Positions 1 to 5,819 of a stretch of 5,819 bases of DNA are shown here, one piece after another. Position 1 is the first letter of the stretch; every line of letters starts with the position of its first letter. The position numbers and the translations under genes were made by a program. The stretch spans positions 1-5,819 of the forward strand of contig CALMET010000046.1 of assembly GCA_937863195.1 (NCBI GenBank), given 5' to 3'. The stretch is from an uncultured bacterium (GTDB lineage Bacteria > Patescibacteria > ABY1 > SG8-24 > 2-12-FULL-60-25). The notes below the pieces were generated by a model. The model was not told where the DNA came from and searched no databases. It worked only from the letters and a program-made list of their open reading frames with translations.

Positions 1-133
1 GAATTCTTGTAGTATGCCAACGCCCCCTGTCTATACCTTTAGAGCTGAAGATGTTGCAGCACAGGCACCAGATATTAAGCCTGGCTCATTGGATGTTGAA
101 GCAAATATCACGGTTACCTTTGAAATTCGCTAG
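1..133 (+). CDS. SIMPL (DUF541) domain protein, C-terminal end only
   Basis: The frame is open from base 2 to a TAG at 131-133, giving the last 43 residues of a protein that begins before the window. It contains PTPPVYTFRAED, then the segment IKPGSLDVEANITVTFEIR at the very end. A 'PTPI/PPVY...' stretch, then 'PG..EV.A.VTVTFEI' at the terminus, is how SIMPL-domain (YggE-like, DUF541) proteins usually finish, with the last beta strand closing the domain. Family members are mostly exported or membrane-anchored and have been linked to oxidative stress, but their biochemical role is unclear. The signal peptide and most of the domain lie outside the window, so the call rests on this tail alone. 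The stop is 24 bases before the enolase start on the same strand, so co-transcription is possible. Confidence 0.62.
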   Translation, partial: NSCSMPTPPVYTFRAEDVAAQAPDIKPGSLDVEANITVTFEIR

Positions 134-157
134 TCACTAAGTTTTTCTTCGTTCTTT

Positions 158-1420
158 ATGTTCGCTACTACTAAAATCAAATCTCTCGTCGCCCGCGAAG
201 TTTTAGACTCGCGCGGCAATCCAACCGTGGCCTGTCGTGTCACGTTAGCTTCTGGTGCTTCTGCTGAGGCAAAGGTGCCAAGCGGTGCCTCAACGGGCTC
301 ACACGAAGCCATGGAGCTTCGAGATGGTGGTAAACGCTATGGAGGCAAAGGTGTGCTCAAAGCCGTCGCAAATGTTAATGGTCCACTCGCGAAAAAACTG
401 GTAGGGATGGACGCCCTTAAGCTCGCTAAAATCGACGCGGTGATGATTGAGCTTGATGGTATGTCAAACAAGTCGCGTTTTGGCGCGAATGCATTGCTCG
501 CCATCTCAATGGCTTGCGCTCAGGCCGTCGCCCTTCACCGCAAAGAACCGCTCTGGAAGACCTTGCGCCACATGTATGATTTTCCGCGCGCCGCCAAGAT
601 GCCGATACCAACCATGAACGTGCTGAATGGTGGGGCGCATGCCAATTGGTCACTCGACGTGCAAGAGTGCATGATTGTGCCAAAACAGCGCACTATTGAA
701 GAGCGTGTGCGTGCAGGTGCTGAAGTTTTTCAGGTACTTGCTTCGATCTTAAAGCAAAACGGCTTTGCAACAACCGTAGGCGATGAAGGTGGTTTTGCAC
801 CGCAGCTGCATACGATCGAAAATGCTTTCGACGTACTTGTCCAAGCGATTAAAAAAGCTGGATACACGCCTGGTAAAGATATTGCCATCGCTACCGATAT
901 TGCTGCTTCTGAATTCTACAATGCCAAAAAAGGTGTGTATGAAATGAAAACCGAAGGCAAGACCTATACGGCAGACGAGCTTTTGCAACGCTATATTGAT
1001 CTGCAGAAAAAATACCCGATAGAATCGATCGAAGACCCCTTCGCCGAAGATGATTGGGCGGCATGGAAGAAAGCTCTCCCTAAGCTCAAAAAGAAATCCG
1101 TTGTGGTGGGGGACGACTTCTTTGTGACGAATGTCGAGCGTCTCGAACGCGGTATTAAAGAAAAAGCCGCAAACGCCATTCTTATCAAGCCAAACCAGAT
1201 TGGGACGGTAAGCGAAACGGTGCAAGCCATCATCATGGCCCATAAGCACGGATTCAAAACCTCTATCTCTCATCGCTCTGGCGAAACGTCTGATACCTTC
1301 ATCGCCGACCTTGCTTATGCCTGTGGTTCGGACTATATCAAAACCGGTTCTCTCTCACGTTCAGAACGTGTTGAAAAATATAACCGTTTGATGGAGATCT
1401 CGCTTGAAACACGCAAGTAA
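158..1420 (+). CDS. eno: Enolase (phosphopyruvate hydratase)
   Basis: Cytoplasmic glycolytic enzyme converting 2-phosphoglycerate to phosphoenolpyruvate, with Mg2+. The 420 residues are close to the usual bacterial length of about 430. The N-terminal domain opens with AREVLDSRGNPTV (12-24) and carries the mobile loop SGASTGSHEAMELRDG (42-57). The barrel domain has NGGAHANWSLDVQE (157-170), VGDEGGFAP (207-215), SIEDPFAEDDW (290-300), VVGDDFFVTN (316-325), ILIKPNQIGT (341-350) and SHRSGETSD (371-379). By alignment from memory with the E. coli enzyme, the acid/base pair is E210 and K344. Metal ligands are D247, E292 and D319, and substrate contacts include H161, E170, R373, S374 and K395. All are present, so it should be active. 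Small departures from consensus are NWSLD where NN.D is common and Cys171 where Phe is usual. The ATG at 158 is preceded by a pyrimidine-rich stretch, not a Shine-Dalgarno. All 20 arginines use CGN codons. Confidence 0.98.
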   Translation: MFATTKIKSLVAREVLDSRGNPTVACRVTLASGASAEAKVPSGASTGSHEAMELRDGGKRYGGKGVLKAVANVNGPLAKKLVGMDALKLAKIDAVMIELDGMSNKSRFGANALLAISMACAQAVALHRKEPLWKTLRHMYDFPRAAKMPIPTMNVLNGGAHANWSLDVQECMIVPKQRTIEERVRAGAEVFQVLASILKQNGFATTVGDEGGFAPQLHTIENAFDVLVQAIKKAGYTPGKDIAIATDIAASEFYNAKKGVYEMKTEGKTYTADELLQRYIDLQKKYPIESIEDPFAEDDWAAWKKALPKLKKKSVVVGDDFFVTNVERLERGIKEKAANAILIKPNQIGTVSETVQAIIMAHKHGFKTSISHRSGETSDTFIADLAYACGSDYIKTGSLSRSERVEKYNRLMEISLETRK

Positions 1421-1453
1421 AAAAACACTCCGACATTAGGTCGGAGTGTTTTT
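1421..1453. terminator. Bidirectional intrinsic terminator between eno and the 58-residue minus-strand gene
   Basis: A perfect 14-base inverted repeat, AAAAACACTCCGAC (1421-1434) and GTCGGAGTGTTTTT (1440-1453), encloses a 5-base loop, ATTAG. It begins directly after the enolase stop. The plus-strand transcript ends in five U. The minus-strand transcript ends in seven U, from the A run at 1419-1425. The site therefore suits termination in both directions between convergent genes. The TTA at 1436-1438 in the loop is the complement of the minus-strand gene's stop codon. Confidence 0.92.
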
Positions 1454-1612
1454 GATATGATCGCGAATGGCTTGCTGAGTTTTTTCGTCCAACTGACCCA
1501 TAACAGGTAGAGCTCGCTCGATAAAGGTTTGCTTAACCTCGTGCAATTCTTTTGCGAGTTTTGCGTAGGCTTTTTTGAGCTCGTCTTGCTGTTGGGGTGT
1601 CGGCGTAGCCAT
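1436..1612 (-). CDS. Small helical protein of 58 residues, unknown function
   Basis: Reading the minus strand from the ATG at 1612 gives 58 residues ending in TAA (1438-1436). The protein starts MATPTPQQQDELKKAYAKLA, continues as a charged Ala/Lys/Glu/Leu-rich stretch, and ends IRDHIKNTPT. It has no signal peptide, membrane segment or cysteine, and looks like two amphipathic helices separated near the proline of RALPVMGQ. I do not recognise the family. Four things support it as a real gene: an in-frame TAA three codons upstream fixes the start, the composition is protein-like, it fills the gap between eno and the next gene, and it ends inside a terminator with a U-tract on its own strand. A longer 130-residue frame overlapping it on the same strand has a junk-like composition and ignores the terminator. 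AAGGG lies three bases before the ATG, closer than a good Shine-Dalgarno. Confidence 0.72.
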   Translation of the reverse strand: MATPTPQQQDELKKAYAKLAKELHEVKQTFIERALPVMGQLDEKTQQAIRDHIKNTPT

Positions 1613-1620
1613 AGGCCCTT

Positions 1621-1649
1621 AGGATACCGCTTTTTCATGCCCTTGAAAA
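1621..1649 (-). promoter_or_regulatory. Weak candidate promoter for the 58-residue gene
   Basis: On the minus strand, TTTTCA (1649-1644) and TATCCT (1626-1621) are 17 bases apart, each matching four of six bases of the sigma70 consensus. Transcription would begin at or within a base or two of the ATG at 1612, giving a leaderless message. Chance matches of this quality are common. Confidence 0.2.
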
Positions 1650-1650
1650 C

Positions 1651-1661
1651 TGTGATACACT
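1651..1661 (+). promoter_or_regulatory. Candidate extended -10 promoter for the 1670-2092 gene
   Basis: TGTGATACACT fits the TRTGnTAnnnT form of an extended -10 element (TG at 1653-1654, hexamer TACACT at 1656-1661). No good -35 lies 16-18 bases upstream, which an extended -10 does not strictly need. Transcription would start near 1668, only about two bases before the ATG. A closely similar element precedes the gene at 3101. Confidence 0.35.
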
Positions 1662-1669
1662 GAGGGTAT

Positions 1670-2092
1670 ATGCGAATCCCTATGTTTCTTACCGAATCCC
1701 GCCAGCGCTGGATCGCCACGCTCATCTTAAGCGCGTTGATTCTCGGTGGTCTCTTTGTCTATACCTTTACCGCATTGCCATCGGTTATTAACGGAAATTC
1801 TTATCAAGCCGTCTTTTTGACCAATGGTCAAGTTTACTTTGGTAAGCTTGTCTCGACGCGCGGTTCATACAAGTTAACCGACGTGTACTATCTTCAATCA
1901 AAGCAGCCCGTTCAGTCTCAGGGAGCAGATGCCGGCGCTGAAGGTGACATGGCACTCATCAAGCTCGGTAATGAACTCCACGGTCCAGAAGATTGGATGT
2001 TGATCAATCGCCAGCACGTGGTTTTTGTTGAACAACTCAAAGGCGATAGCCGCGTGGTACAAGCGATTAACAAAGCAAAGGCAGGTAATTAG
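1670..2092 (+). CDS. Single-pass membrane protein, conserved hypothetical of Patescibacteria
   Basis: A 140-residue protein with one predicted membrane helix at about 14-36, preceded by Arg11 and Arg13, which favours a cytoplasmic N-terminus and an exported C-terminal domain. After the helix come YQAVFLTNGQVYFGKL (45-60), LTDVYYLQ (69-76), a Gln/Ala/Gly-rich linker (77-92), LIKLGNELHGPED (96-108) and NRQHVVFVEQLK (113-124). These segments match, from memory, a hypothetical family common in Patescibacteria and with no assigned role. The linker probably varies between members. The first ATG (1670) is used because the predicted promoter would start transcripts about two bases upstream. A second in-frame ATG at 1682 would lose only four residues. 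The stop is eight bases before the miaA start, so the two genes are probably co-transcribed. Cell-envelope location is inferred only from the helix. Confidence 0.85.
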   Translation: MRIPMFLTESRQRWIATLILSALILGGLFVYTFTALPSVINGNSYQAVFLTNGQVYFGKLVSTRGSYKLTDVYYLQSKQPVQSQGADAGAEGDMALIKLGNELHGPEDWMLINRQHVVFVEQLKGDSRVVQAINKAKAGN

Positions 2093-2100
2093 GTTGTCTT

Positions 2101-3027
2101 GTGGCGTTACCCAAACTCCTCTTTATCGTAGGTCCAACGGCGTCTGGTAAGACGTCGTTGGGTTTATTGTTGGCGAAACGTTTTGACGGCGAGATCGTCA
2201 ATGCTGACGCGCGCCAGCTCTATAAAGAATTTTCGATTGGTACCGGCAAACCTGAATGTGAATCCGAGATTCATCACGATGAACATATCTGCTGGGTAGA
2301 CGATGTTCCGCATTATTTGATGGATTCACAGGATCCACGAGAACCGATCAGTGTCGCTGAATACAAGGCCCTCGCCGAAGAGCGTATCGCGGACATTTTA
2401 TTGCGTGGCAAATTACCTATTGTTGTTGGTGGTACGGGGCTTTATGTGAGCGCCTTGATTGATCAACCGCTCTTGCCTGAAGTACCGCCAAATGAAGTTC
2501 TGCGTGCTGAACTCGAACAAAAAGAATTGCCAGAGCTCGTACATGAACTTCTAGAGTTGGACGAAGAAGCGGGCGATAGCATCGATCTCCAAAATCCGCG
2601 CCGGGTGATTCGCGCGATTGAATTGATAAAGGCGTTAGACCTGCCGATTCGTGAAATCCGTAAAACAGGCGAACCAAAATACGATGCACTTCAATTAGCA
2701 ATCAAGCATGAACCAGAAGTATTACGCGAACGCATCGATAAAACGATTGAACGATTTTTTGAAGAAGGGTGGTTACAAGAAGTGCGCGAGTTATTAACAA
2801 AAGACATTCCTTTCGATGTTCCTGCGTGGTCGTCTATTGGCTATCCTGAATTACGACAAGTGCTCGAGGGCAAGCTTGAAGAACAAGAAGCGAAACGCCA
2901 GATTCAATTCGCGACCTGGCATTACGCCAAACGTCAGCTCACCTGGTTCAAACGCGACCAACGTATTAAGTGGATGATGAATGATCACAAGGTGATCCAG
3001 GAGGTTATTCAGTTTCTGGCGACGTAG
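2101..3027 (+). CDS. miaA: tRNA dimethylallyltransferase (tRNA A37 isopentenyltransferase)
   Basis: Transfers a dimethylallyl group from DMAPP to N6 of A37 in tRNAs that read codons starting with U, which stabilises codon-anticodon pairing. The 308 residues are typical length. The P-loop GPTASGKT is at 11-18. GEIVNADARQLY (30-41) follows, with D36 matching the catalytic aspartate. GTGKP is at 47-51, PHYLMD at 70-75, VGGTGLYVSALID at 109-121, NPRRVIRAIEL at 166-176, and the C-terminal tRNA-binding signature YAKRQLTWFKRD at 275-286. Between GTGKP and PHYLMD there is about ten residues more than in E. coli, and the usual HPND before the Arg-rich motif reads DLQN. As I recall, both traits are common in Patescibacteria. 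The start is GTG at 2101, which places the P-loop normally. No clear Shine-Dalgarno precedes it, so translation may be coupled to the gene ending at 2092. Confidence 0.96.
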   Translation: MALPKLLFIVGPTASGKTSLGLLLAKRFDGEIVNADARQLYKEFSIGTGKPECESEIHHDEHICWVDDVPHYLMDSQDPREPISVAEYKALAEERIADILLRGKLPIVVGGTGLYVSALIDQPLLPEVPPNEVLRAELEQKELPELVHELLELDEEAGDSIDLQNPRRVIRAIELIKALDLPIREIRKTGEPKYDALQLAIKHEPEVLRERIDKTIERFFEEGWLQEVRELLTKDIPFDVPAWSSIGYPELRQVLEGKLEEQEAKRQIQFATWHYAKRQLTWFKRDQRIKWMMNDHKVIQEVIQFLAT

Positions 3028-3038
3028 AGCAGCAGAGA

Positions 3039-3069
3039 CGTGGAACAGTCTAATACCGTGTGATAGGAT
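3039..3069 (+). promoter_or_regulatory. Candidate promoter of the four-repeat gene
   Basis: CGTGG (3039-3043), 15 bases, then TGTGATAGGAT (3059-3069), an extended -10 of the TRTGnTAnnAT form. Transcription would start near 3076, giving a leader of about 25 bases to the ATG at 3101. The same elements with identical spacing precede the paralogue at 3803, and that conservation is the main support. Confidence 0.42.
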
Positions 3070-3100
3070 CAGGGTATAACTCAAATGCCTGCTCATATCA

Positions 3101-3697
3101 ATGGAAAACTCTTTTAAATCGACGCCCTCGCTGTCTCATTCTGCAGAACAGGGGCAAGATCTGTTAAAACAAAAAGAAGCTGCTCTCGAGACAATCAGAT
3201 CGGTGTTGATTAATGGAAATGGGGTTTATTTAGCTAATGCTATTAAGCAGGCTGAGTCTTGTGGAGCAACTGAGCAAGATTTTAGATCCCTGAAGGATGT
3301 ATTAGTGACGTCAGTGGTATCGGTTTTGTCCGAAGGATACATATCCTCGGTACTTGCTTTGCTTGGTCATATGACAACGTTCGGTGCCTCGAAGGAGGAT
3401 TTTTTAGGTCTCAAAGAAGCTGCGATAAAGGGTGTTGATGCGCAATTACTAAGAGGTGAGGCTCGTGAAGCTCTTAGCCTCATTGAGAATAGCTGGCGAT
3501 TCGATGCTTCAAAAGATGATTTTATTGGTTTAAAAGAGAAGGCGACACGGGGGATAGAATATCTACTCGATGAAGGCCTCGGATTAGAAGCGCTTGAAGC
3601 ACTTGAAGCTACCGAGCGTTTTGGCGTGAACGAAAGTGATTTCAGTGAATCAGCTCAAGAAACCTTTGAGGTTTATAGATTGGATCGTCGAGGTTAA
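3101..3697 (+). CDS. Protein with four tandem 40-residue helical repeats, unknown function
   Basis: A 198-residue protein, apparently cytoplasmic: no signal peptide, membrane segment or known catalytic motif. After a Ser/Gln-rich polar head (1-31) it is four back-to-back repeats of exactly 40 residues: 32-71, 72-111, 112-151 and 152-191, with a 7-residue tail. Each repeat has Leu at position 5, Gly at 8, a hydrophobic helix B, then a turn such as FGASKEDF at 23-30 and a helix A such as LKEAAIKG at 33-40. Ser or Thr at 26 with Asp at 29 looks like a helix capping box (Asn replaces it in repeat 4). This suggests an alpha-solenoid with loose resemblance to TPR or PPR repeats, but at 40 rather than 34-35 residues I cannot place it. 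Such folds usually bind proteins, peptides or RNA. Four of ten arginines use AGA, unlike neighbours. The start at 3101 lacks a Shine-Dalgarno. The gene is paralogous to 3803-4645. Confidence 0.88.
   Translation: MENSFKSTPSLSHSAEQGQDLLKQKEAALETIRSVLINGNGVYLANAIKQAESCGATEQDFRSLKDVLVTSVVSVLSEGYISSVLALLGHMTTFGASKEDFLGLKEAAIKGVDAQLLRGEAREALSLIENSWRFDASKDDFIGLKEKATRGIEYLLDEGLGLEALEALEATERFGVNESDFSESAQETFEVYRLDRRG
3194..3673 (+). repeat. Four tandem 120-base coding repeats
   Basis: The coding sequence for residues 32-191 is four in-phase 120-base units. At the protein level Gly8 is present in all four, Asp29 and Phe30 in all four, and Gly24 in three, with Asp in the third. The DNA units have diverged, so they are old duplications apart from short conserved blocks such as 3379-3403. 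Confidence 0.88.
3379..3403 (+). repeat. 25-base block identical to 4210-4234
   Basis: This stretch in repeat 2, which encodes the FGASKEDF turn, is identical base for base to 4210-4234 in repeat 3 of the paralogue, including third codon positions. It begins GTTCGGTGCC and ends GGAGGATTTT. The flanking bases differ. Confidence 0.9.
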
Positions 3698-3740
3698 AAA
3701 TAGGCAATTCGTTTTTTATCAGCGTAAAGCGTTGACAGAG

Positions 3741-3771
3741 CGTGGCTGATGTAAAGAGGCTGTGTTAGCAT
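3741..3771 (+). promoter_or_regulatory. Candidate promoter of the six-repeat gene
   Basis: CGTGG (3741-3745), 15 bases, then TGTGTTAGCAT (3761-3771), an extended -10 with hexamer TAGCAT. Transcription would begin near 3778, giving a leader of about 25 bases to the ATG at 3803. Both the 15-base spacer and the 31 bases from hexamer to ATG equal those of the paralogue's promoter. Confidence 0.42.
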
Positions 3772-3784
3772 TAAGTCACTTAAT
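3770..3784. promoter_or_regulatory. 15-base palindrome at the predicted start site of the six-repeat gene
   Basis: ATTAAGT-C-ACTTAAT is a perfect palindrome overlapping the last bases of the -10 and the predicted transcription start near 3778, a usual place for a repressor operator. In the RNA, AGTCAC (3774-3779) could instead pair with GTGACT (3787-3792) around a 7-base loop. The paralogue's leader has no such palindrome. The binding protein, if any, is unknown. Confidence 0.3.
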
Positions 3785-3802
3785 CTGTGACTGTACCTAT
3801 CT

Positions 3803-4645
3803 ATGAAATCATCTCTTGAATCGATGTCCTCAGCGGCTACTCCAGCAGAATCCAAAAAGTCTCAGGATCAGGAGCAAAAAGAAAAGAAGATTTTGTTTTT
3901 GAGAATCGAGTCCTACCTGCGCAAAGGCGATGCAGCTAAAGTGTTCGATTACCTCGAACAAGTACAATCGCTAGGCGCTACCAAAGAAGAGTTAAGTAAT
4001 TTGTCAGAGTCCGTGGTTAAGGGGGTGGATAAATTACTCTCTATGGGCAAGGGAGAGGAGGCGATAAAATTACATGCATTCGCACTGTCGCACGGCGCTA
4101 CCAAGGAGGATTTTACAGGATTTCGAGAAGCGCTTCTCAAGGGGGCTGAGTATCAGTTATCCATAGGAAATATTGACCGTGTTCTCCCGACTCTCGAAAA
4201 CGGGGAGTTGTTCGGTGCCTCGAAGGAGGATTTTAAAATCATTGGGAAAGCCGCCATAAAAGGCGCCGAGTTAGGTTTGTCCAGAGGCGATATGGATCCG
4301 GCAATTAAAGCCTTAAAGTATTCGTCGAACTTCGGTTTATTTACGGAGGACTTCGCTACGCTAAAAGAGGCAGCGATTAAGGGTATTTACGATCTATTGC
4401 TAAGTGGTGAGGCTGAATCGGCTCTTGATTTAATCGAGAACACAAAACGTTTCGGAGTCTCCAAGGAGGACTTCAGCATCTTAAAAGACGCTGCAATAAG
4501 AGGGATAAATACGTTAAGCAAAGATGGATTTGGGCTAGAAGCTTTAGAAGCCTTTGAAATTGTTAAAAAATTGGGTGTTACGGTATCAGATATAAGTGAA
4601 TCAAGCTGGGATATAATGAAGTCAACTCGTAGCACGCAATATTAA
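3803..4645 (+). CDS. Protein with six tandem 40-residue helical repeats, unknown function
   Basis: A 280-residue paralogue of the preceding gene. A polar, Lys/Gln/Ser-rich head (1-34) leads into six contiguous 40-residue repeats at 35-74, 75-114, 115-154, 155-194, 195-234 and 235-274, with a 6-residue tail. Gly8 and Gly24 are kept in all six. The turn reads GATKEDF, GASKEDF, GLFTEDF or GVSKEDF in the middle copies and decays to GVTVSDI in the last. The C-terminal repeats are colinear with the shorter paralogue: repeat 5 carries SGEAESALDLIEN against RGEAREALSLIEN, and repeat 6 carries FGLEALEAFE against LGLEALEALE. The proteins therefore differ mainly by repeat number. There is no signal peptide, membrane segment or cysteine. 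I infer an alpha-solenoid binding scaffold with unknown partner. Three of eight arginines are AGA. The start is ATG at 3803 without a Shine-Dalgarno. The stop is 11 bases before the EVE gene. Confidence 0.9.
   Translation: MKSSLESMSSAATPAESKKSQDQEQKEKKILFLRIESYLRKGDAAKVFDYLEQVQSLGATKEELSNLSESVVKGVDKLLSMGKGEEAIKLHAFALSHGATKEDFTGFREALLKGAEYQLSIGNIDRVLPTLENGELFGASKEDFKIIGKAAIKGAELGLSRGDMDPAIKALKYSSNFGLFTEDFATLKEAAIKGIYDLLLSGEAESALDLIENTKRFGVSKEDFSILKDAAIRGINTLSKDGFGLEALEAFEIVKKLGVTVSDISESSWDIMKSTRSTQY
4210..4234 (+). repeat. 25-base block identical to 3379-3403
   Basis: Second copy of the identical block, here in repeat 3 of the six-repeat gene. The copies start 831 bases apart in direct orientation, so recombination between them would fuse the two genes. 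Confidence 0.9.
4612..4617 (+). promoter_or_regulatory. Possible internal -10 for the EVE-domain gene
   Basis: A consensus TATAAT near the end of the six-repeat gene would start transcripts around 4624, giving a leader of about 33 bases to the EVE start at 4657. No recognisable -35 or TGn extension accompanies it, and the bases are also coding, so this may be chance. Confidence 0.22.
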
Positions 4646-4656
4646 ACCAGGGTCCC

Positions 4657-5070
4657 ATGTCCTATTTTCTCATCAAATCTGACCCCGAAGAATTTGGATG
4701 GAAGGAGCTGCTTCGTGATGGCAAAACCGCCTGGACGGGCGTGCGCAGTGCAGCTGCAGCATTGAATTTAAAAAAGATGAAAGCAGGGGACATCGCCCTT
4801 TTTTATGAAAGCCAGGGTCCAAAAGAGATTGTCGGACTTTCGATCATCAAAAAAGCGGCTTATCCAGATCCGACCAATACTGATACAAAACGTGATTGGG
4901 TGGCGGTAGATGTCGTGCCGGGCAAGCCCTTTAAGCGCCCTGTTACTTTGGCTGAGATTAAAGCCGACCCGTTTTTTCTTGACTTCTTGCTCGTACGTCA
5001 ATCAAGGCTCTCGGTGATGCCGGTAACAGTAAAACAATACGAAAAAATTGTATCAAAAGGCAATAAATAA
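4657..5070 (+). CDS. EVE domain-containing protein
   Basis: A 137-residue stand-alone EVE domain, a PUA-like beta-barrel fold. Family hallmarks in order are YFLIKSDPEEF (3-13, usually YWLMKSEP), WTGVRS (26-31, usually WDGVRN), MKAGDIALFYES (41-52, usually MK.GD..LFYHS), GLSIIKKAAYPDPT (60-73), WVAVDV (81-86) and RLSVMPVT (117-124). EVE proteins are thought to recognise modified bases in DNA or RNA in an aromatic pocket. Free-standing ones are widespread in bacteria and mostly of unknown substrate. This copy has Glu51 in place of the usual His in the FYHS motif, which could affect the pocket. The ATG at 4657 gives the normal N-terminus. AGGG nine bases or fewer upstream is a weak ribosome-site candidate. 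The gene ends inside a hairpin that also overlaps the lepB promoter. miaA upstream is another RNA-modification gene, but a link is speculative. Confidence 0.93.
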   Translation: MSYFLIKSDPEEFGWKELLRDGKTAWTGVRSAAAALNLKKMKAGDIALFYESQGPKEIVGLSIIKKAAYPDPTNTDTKRDWVAVDVVPGKPFKRPVTLAEIKADPFFLDFLLVRQSRLSVMPVTVKQYEKIVSKGNK

Positions 5071-5093
5071 GCGCTCGACAAGACGCTTATTTT
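5065..5093 (+). terminator. Hairpin after the EVE gene, probable terminator
   Basis: AAATAAGCG (5065-5073) and CGCTTATTT (5084-5092) form a perfect 9-base stem with a 10-base loop, followed by one more T. The EVE stop codon (5068-5070) is in the left arm. The stem is A/T-rich with only three G/C pairs and the U-tract is interrupted, so termination may be partial. Confidence 0.55.
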
Positions 5094-5103
5094 AGGCTAT
5101 GAT
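5075..5103 (+). promoter_or_regulatory. Sigma70-type promoter of lepB
   Basis: TCGACA (5075-5080), a 17-base spacer, then TATGAT (5098-5103), each matching five of six consensus bases. This is the best promoter in the window. Transcription would start near 5110, leaving a leader of only about nine bases before the ATG at 5119. The -35 lies in the loop of the preceding hairpin. Confidence 0.6.
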
Positions 5104-5118
5104 AGGCCGTATTCCGCT

Positions 5119-5727
5119 ATGTTTACACGATTTCGTAAATCCGACAGTGAATCGGTGTCAGAAGCTCCAAATTCAGCGCTTGGTGTCATTCTTGAAGTAG
5201 TGCAAGTGCTTGCTATTTCTTTAGCGTTGATTATCCCGATTCGTTTTTTTCTCATTCAGCCATTTTACGTTCAGGGTGCGAGCATGGAGCCGAACTTCTT
5301 TGACCATGAATATTTGGTCATCGATGAGCTCTCTTATCGATTGCATGCGCCAAAGCGCGGCGATGTGACCGTCTTCAAGTATCCAAACAATACCAAAGAG
5401 TACTTTATCAAGCGCGTGATCGGTTTACCTGGTGAAACGGTTGAAATCTCAAATGGCAAGATAAAGATATTTAACGACAAGCATCCAAATGGTGCTCAGC
5501 TCGACGAAACGAGCTATCTCGATCAAGACTTTACGGCAAATTCACAGACGGTCACTTTAAAGCCAGATGAATACTTCGTTCTCGGTGATAATCGCTCATC
5601 AAGTCTCGACTCCCGTTTCTTTGGACCTGTAAGTAGCTCCTATCTCGTTGGTCGTGTCTGGTTGCGCGGATTCCCGTTTGATCGCTGGAAGCATTTCACC
5701 TCCTTTAACTACGAAATCGATAACTAA
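5119..5727 (+). CDS. lepB: Signal peptidase I
   Basis: Membrane-bound serine protease that removes signal peptides from exported proteins on the outer face of the cytoplasmic membrane. The 202 residues fit the short, single-anchor form typical of Gram-positive and Patescibacteria enzymes. A charged head (1-17) precedes one membrane helix at about 21-47. The catalytic Ser55 is in GASMEPNF (53-60), followed by the GD segment KRGDVTVFKYP (79-89). The general-base Lys99 is in KRVIGLPGE (99... start of box D at 98-106), and box E reads GDNRSSSLDSRFFGPV (156-171). All catalytic elements are present. The start at 5119 gives a normal cytoplasmic head before the helix. It has its own good promoter, and the next gene begins five bases after the stop, so the two are likely co-transcribed. 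Confidence 0.97.
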   Translation: MFTRFRKSDSESVSEAPNSALGVILEVVQVLAISLALIIPIRFFLIQPFYVQGASMEPNFFDHEYLVIDELSYRLHAPKRGDVTVFKYPNNTKEYFIKRVIGLPGETVEISNGKIKIFNDKHPNGAQLDETSYLDQDFTANSQTVTLKPDEYFVLGDNRSSSLDSRFFGPVSSSYLVGRVWLRGFPFDRWKHFTSFNYEIDN

Positions 5728-5732
5728 ACATT

Positions 5733-5819
5733 ATGCCATCCAAACCCGTAAAAAAGCCTCCTGCAAAGCCGGCTGCGCCAAAGGCTTCATCTGAGGCGCC
5801 AACGTCATCCAAAAAAGCT
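5733..5819 (+). CDS. Lys/Pro/Ala-rich protein, N-terminal fragment
   Basis: An ATG at 5733 opens a frame that continues to the end of the window (29 codons, no stop). The visible part, beginning MPSKPVKKPPAKPAAPKASS, is a disordered, basic, low-complexity tail built of Lys, Pro, Ala and Ser. Such tails precede many unrelated domains, so no function can be assigned. It starts five bases after the lepB stop, without a Shine-Dalgarno, and is probably in the same transcript. Confidence 0.6.
   Translation, partial: MPSKPVKKPPAKPAAPKASSEAPTSSKKA

Follow-up and report, generated by a model that had tools for sequence, protein, structure and literature searches.

The window analysed here, which is the whole stretch of 5,819 nucleotides (nt) of contig CALMET010000046.1 (positions 1 to 5,819, forward strand; assembly GCA_937863195.1), contains two adjacent open reading frames (ORFs) whose products are organized as arrays of 40-residue repeats. 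ORF A (3101-3697, plus strand) encodes 198 residues with an isoelectric point (pI) of 4.7, and ORF B (3803-4645, plus strand) 280 residues with a pI of 5.2. Both proteins consist of an N-terminal cap, a repeat tract (four units in A, six in B) and a short C-terminal tail. They are real, regular and uncatalogued, yet their type is known, a predicted TPR/PPR-like alpha-solenoid with an unusual period. The explanation that we favour, and that we consider somewhat likelier to be right than wrong, is that stacked hairpins form a curved TPR/PPR-like scaffold holding a peptide or protein partner, and that the pair is a stand-alone offshoot of a repeat family present in the same class of bacteria. The analysis establishes the repeats, their period, the paralogy of the two proteins, a nonsynonymous divergence (dN) well below the synonymous one (dS), and the lack of any matched catalytic domain in A or B.

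Self-similarity within each protein is highest at a lag of exactly 40 residues, followed by 80 and 120. At lag 40, identical residues are found at 40 of 158 positions in A and at 65 of 240 in B, values that none of 20,000 composition shuffles attained for either protein (maxima 25 and 34). In the register of the first-pass annotation, the repeats occupy about 3194-3673 in A and about 3905-4624 in B (both plus strand). The claim made there, of ten contiguous and gapless units of exactly 40 residues, four followed by six, is confirmed by the ORF coordinates and the lag analysis. Starting at the turn, the consensus of the ten units reads FGASKEDFxxLKEAAxKGIxxxLxxGxxxxALxxLExxxx; the earlier register begins at position 19 of this one, its Gly8 and Leu5 being positions 26 and 23. 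Gly8 is invariant and Leu5 is kept in nine of the ten units. A count by eye over the ten segments from CGATEQDF to LGVTVSDI gives Gly24 and Asp29 in nine each, and Phe30 and Ser/Thr26 in eight each, which reproduces all of the frequencies claimed for Gly8, Leu5, Gly24, Asp29 and Phe30. By our numbering, each array opens with a degenerate unit (A14 in A, B17 in B) that has no FG-x-S/T-x-x-D-F turn. Positions 9, 20, 21, 24 and 25 of this register are among those that vary most from unit to unit.

The AlphaFold2 model of B is an array of tandem helical hairpins, as is characteristic of an alpha-solenoid, with a predicted local distance difference test score (pLDDT) of 78 and a predicted template modelling score (pTM) of 0.54. 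Its hairpins comprise residues 61-80/84-96, 141-161/164-176, 182-200/204-217 and 221-240/244-257; in the third repeat helix A is split (101-104 and 107-120, followed by 124-137). In most repeats helix A spans about 20 residues and helix B 13 or 14. The model therefore supports the proposal of one two-helix hairpin per unit, with helix A broken in one of the six repeats. Designed helical repeat proteins top both structure comparisons. The natural structures in the second one include PPR10 and plastid RNA-polymerase chains, which we take to be PPR subunits. Matches of B to designed TIM barrels in the PDB (E 1e-4 to 1.5e-3) were rejected, since they look like an artefact of composition or repetition.

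A and B are adjacent paralogues, with 40% identity over 184 residues (BLASTP E 1.5e-34). In the ungapped pairing of A54-193 with B137-276, dN is 0.54 and dS 2.98 (saturated), and a dN well below dS is as expected for proteins under selection. For the final two full units of A, the best partners are the final two of B (25 and 21 identical residues out of 40), which suggests a duplicated gene whose copies gained or lost units on the N-terminal side. Furthermore, a tract of 25 nt in A that encodes FGASKEDF (3379-3403, plus strand) is identical to one in B (4210-4234, plus strand). Given the codon usage, the probability of the same codons arising by chance is about 7e-4, and such identity, despite only 40% identity of the proteins, hints at a recent exchange between A and B.

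Among the proteins sharing exact words with the query, the only ones that could be reached, a protein database yielded no homologue of B alone (E limit of 1e-3 over 3,597 candidates) or of A and B aligned (E limit of 10 over 7,999 candidates). Seven pattern matches to B in viral contigs included no relative. In the nearest family, the profile of A and B matched none of 41 genomes, missing one (G411) that was later found by a mixed profile. The class of G073, a member of that family, includes G694, and this was the only one of 380 class genomes matched by the aligned A and B profile (best E 2.8e-5). The match lies in a frame of 1,879 residues, in which the repeats mostly alternate between 34 and 39 residues. 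A profile of the G694 repeats matched five of 111 genomes of the G694 order, G694 included. A mixed single-repeat profile of 33 rows, combining the ten window units with units of G694, G738, G797 and G805, matched three of 379 phylum genomes with a limit of E 0.001. In the class it matched 14 of the 380 sampled genomes with a limit of E 0.01, and nine of these also pass E 0.001; G694 matches by construction, and five of the 14 have single matches with E 0.001-0.01. The loci of 12 of these 14 genomes were retrieved (G624 and G642 were left out). In a protein search, a mixed six-row profile gave 14 matches at E 0.01; a profile row is contained in one of these, and all are labelled 'hypothetical'. 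The pair of paralogues described by the first-pass annotation thus stands, while its restriction of the repeats to these two proteins is probably too narrow.

The frames of the relatives range from stand-alone ones of 161, 185 and 416 residues (L172, L167 and L170) to very long ones of 1,255-1,879 residues (L123:5677-11316, L137:4019-9127, L138:4775-9106, L139:2950-7491 and L165:1946-5713). The 185-residue frame (L167:1052-1609) belongs to G411 of the nearest family and has one or two recognised units; from their motifs, we take its flanking frames to be glutamate racemase-like and site-2 protease-like. No Pfam repeat family was present in the 13 repeat-bearing frames scanned, several other frames being outside the scan. 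A GNAT domain (PF00583) is found in the long L137 protein and, in L136, in the gene beside the repeat gene. A structure model of the 477-residue repeat part of the G805 protein consists of hairpins (pLDDT 87, pTM 0.66), with helices of 4, 16 and 10-11 residues in most 39-residue units. To judge from the models, the first two of these appear as one helix of about 20 residues in most window repeats. The register F-x-x-S-x-E...(E/Q)AA-x-x-G-x4-L-x-x-G-x4-A, predicted hairpins and an acidic character (pI 5.1-5.6 for the repeat parts of four relatives) are shared with the window pair. The Patescibacteria repeats have features of their own, namely spacings of mostly 34 and 39 residues (33 to 50 were seen), a helix B about three residues shorter, often long C-terminal parts, and a separate short SPE(V/I) helix in the 39-residue units. 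The window units keep to 40 residues without exception, and among them no SPEV segment was seen. In view of this lack of both the 34/39 spacing and the SPE(V/I) helix, the pair is termed probable kin and not a member of the family.

Several observations concern the long relatives themselves. For the 1,879-residue protein, matches to RGCC (PF15151, which passes its cut-off) and to BSAP-5i (which does not) were discarded: in neither case does any stretch pass alone, and both look like artefacts of composition or repetition. The C-terminal parts of the very long frames are dissimilar and mostly without a Pfam name. By eye, a Thr-x-Cys-Cys-Met-Pro motif marks a C-terminal stretch common to L138, L139 and L173; another stretch, together with a GNAT-like end, is common to L137, L136 and L174, that of L174 having a similar GNAT look. 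L136:2902-6102 (minus strand) holds a Falkowbacteria repeat protein of 475 residues and a next frame of 589 residues with the GNAT end. By eye the two together correspond to the one long L137 protein, and the gene appears split; several other database copies of the 475-residue frame have equal length. The repeat protein (P0001) of G797, a genome from the order of G694, is the Candidatus Falkowbacteria hypothetical protein COS18_00245.

How firm is the kinship? A hidden Markov model (HMM) made without the window, from 73 domain matches in the long proteins, was run against 3,699 sequences (the two proteins, their two reversed versions, 2,000 shuffles and 1,695 all-frame ORFs). It ranked B first (E 5e-4) and A second (E 8e-3), the best other sequence having E 0.64; this ranking rests on weak single-unit scores. 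Comparison of the profiles by hhalign gave a score of 28.4 (P 4.5e-7), while none of 200 profiles with shuffled columns scored above 16.0, and further profile-profile scores were 29.6 (P 3e-7) and 27.6 (P 1.3e-6, probability 90.6). The match to the 34/39-residue family thus goes beyond the decoys. With the relatives' profile, B and A are listed up to E 1000 and the PPR and TPR consensus sequences are absent; as single-sequence targets, PPR and TPR have hhalign scores of 19.6 and 14.8.

An earlier profile from G694 only gave E 0.047 for B and placed A below three shuffles, which is no separation. It weighs against this kinship that with the window-only profile a typed six-copy PPR consensus scored 20.9 bits, compared with 18.3 for the best relative and 17.3 for G694. 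It could be imagined that A and B are generic helical repeats that arose by convergence, grew by local duplication and are unrelated to the other repeat proteins of the class. The PPR consensus equalling the class repeats in score would fit such an origin, as would the absence of matches to the two-protein profile from the nearest family and the hint of recent exchange in the identical 25-nt tract. We nevertheless regard it as unlikely, if deserving of some weight, given the profile matches beyond decoys and the stand-alone G411 frame with its one or two recognised units in the same family. The link between window and class is moderate: kinship within a TPR-like fold is the likelier case and is not proven. 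On the strength of the sequence comparisons, A and B are probably a regular, stand-alone branch of this repeat family.

The relationship to named repeat families has to be considered as well. No Pfam or NCBIfam family matched A or B above cut-off, in line with the claim that the repeats belong to no named family. The best Pfam model for B is PPR (PF01535), with 18.3 bits (E 0.0027, residues 235-259) against a curated cut-off of 25 bits; A has no PPR match up to E 1, and none of the TPR repeat models of Pfam matched either protein up to E 1. Below cut-off, Pfam ARM_TT21, which derives from a TPR-21 protein, was found at E 0.025, and in NCBIfam a spore-protein model matched B only. Searched against the PDB, the ten-repeat profile matched designed PPR chains (E 0.0013-0.0014) and designed TPR chains (E 0.015 and 0.031), and the profile of the relatives matched neither PPR nor TPR chains within an E limit of 10. 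PF01535 itself was found in none of the 41 genomes of the nearest family, but equally in none of 14 control genomes, which makes its absence uninformative. A literature search, limited to the best-ranked titles and the beginnings of abstracts, found nothing on these repeats.

A and B could be ordinary TPR or PPR proteins that are too divergent for Pfam. The sub-threshold PPR match and the designed chains speak for this, as does the helix-B half of the unit (G-x4-A-L-x-L), which follows the TPR/PPR type. The same does not apply to the longer helix A or to the FG-x-S/T-x-x-D-F motif with which it starts. With PPR the repeats share the two-helix hairpin, the helix-B core G-x4-A-L-x-L-(F/I) and a distance of 16 residues from the glycine before helix B to the one after it, presumably the PPR spacing too. 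They differ in having units of 40 instead of 35 residues, a longer helix A in the AlphaFold2 model, the turn motif, an acidic composition and a score under the cut-off. The matches to designed PPR and TPR chains cover 12-15 columns of helix B, no single stretch passing alone, and both proteins have a period of 40, not the 35 of PPR or the 34 of TPR. We therefore judge this explanation rather improbable. The first-pass annotation had called the repeats loosely similar to TPR or PPR, with another period and other conserved residues. The period of 40 holds, but the distinctness does not hold to the extent proposed, in view of the helix-B signature and of PPR as nearest Pfam model.

Some known repeats come closer in length. 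With TPR proteins, including LGN/Pins, the window pair would have in common a superhelix of helical hairpins, which in TPR proteins binds peptides. TPR periods longer than 34 exist, and we take LGN/Pins to have 40-residue TPRs of the same period (unconfirmed in the literature consulted for it); a Pins chain stands at rank 48 (E 0.092) in a Foldseek search with B. The extra residues of LGN presumably lie partly in helix B, whereas the extra length of the units here is mostly in helix A. OPRs, with 38-40 residues, are described from organelle RNA biology (PMC8635915), and carry a PPPEW motif (PMC12691811). They are similar in repeat length and in their helical hairpins. PPPEW is absent here by eye, and the window repeats are set apart from OPRs by description.

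According to the scaffold explanation, each repeat would be a hairpin of two helices, and the hairpins would stack into a curved array whose surface may hold a peptide or protein partner. A and B would represent two array lengths, of four and six repeats, and act as a cytosolic adaptor or scaffold; by eye neither shows a signal peptide or a membrane segment, and both are acidic. In longer relatives with an acetyltransferase domain behind the repeats or in the next gene, the array would aim the enzyme. Reading of RNA in the manner of PPR proteins is less likely than such a scaffold. The idea that each hairpin reads one or a few bases of single-stranded RNA, with the adjacency of miaA hinting at work on tRNA or mRNA, draws on PPR being the closest Pfam model, on the designed PPRs as closest PDB profile matches, on the PPR chains among the natural structures and on the products of miaA and the EVE gene, which act on or bind nucleic acid, but it is very doubtful, as A and B are acidic, with net charges near -13 and -7, the matches cover 15-17 columns around helix B and lie outside the start of helix A, where the PPR code residues sit, and the slot beside miaA is empty or occupied by other genes in relatives.

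A wider possibility, which we put forward tentatively and with less than even confidence, is that an uncatalogued superfamily of tricopeptide-like repeats, with units of 34, 39 and 40 residues, has branched out within a single class of Patescibacteria. Its members would range from minimal stand-alone arrays, the window pair among them, to proteins of 1,200-1,900 residues whose arrays direct acetyltransferase-like and further catalytic heads towards selected partners. The window pair would be its most regular representative and a natural template for the design of arrays that bind peptides. The ten gapless units provide a clean consensus for structure work. The Patescibacteria genomes sampled are small (about 0.5-2 Mb), yet in one class member a single repeat gene (L123), with repeats that Pfam leaves unnamed, takes up 5.6 kilobases. 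Should the arrays of the long relatives indeed direct enzymes, they would provide an experimental way into the cell biology of these bacteria, of which little is known. TPRs of greater length are already known. The 39- and 40-residue units found here speak against a 2025 review, in which natural tricopeptide repeats outside 34-38 residues are called 'apparently missing' (PMC12691811); OPRs of 38-40 residues (PMC8635915) are likewise already known.

Of 379 genomes sampled across the Patescibacteria phylum, 312 contain a match to the enolase of the window (158-1420, plus strand). The closest six (G073, G315, G086, G213, G322 and G173; 66-74% identical) belong to one family of 41 genomes, and the nearest order comprises the same 41. 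MiaA proteins of this family are at most 49% identical to that of the window, and the host is therefore a separate lineage in or near it. A scan of contigs for MiaA gave 69 loci, the phylum being reached via a Saccharibacterium locus (L058).

The upstream neighbour of A is miaA, encoding a tRNA isopentenyltransferase (PF01715; 2101-3027, plus strand), and downstream of B lie genes for an EVE-domain protein (PF01878; 4657-5070, plus strand) and signal peptidase I (5119-5727, plus strand). No relative of A or B was found in 51 loci (tblastn, E 0.1). Around miaA of the nearest family, the EVE gene is also present in five of 30 loci: the two are direct neighbours in L091, L098 and L107, and in L092 and L097 other genes separate them, including a frame that is presumably UMP-kinase-like. 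In L090 and L101 the frame between miaA and the signal peptidase gene is, by our reading, nucleotidyltransferase-like. The place beside miaA is a variable slot, so that the neighbours are uninformative on the function of A and B. Promoter and terminator scans yielded no more than shuffles, and PADLOC and PHROGs gave nothing better than E 0.0058. A protein of 140 residues (1670-2092, plus strand) has a hydrophobic stretch at its N-terminus and no Pfam family above cut-off; a relative with 51% identity adjoins miaA in G073 (L092).
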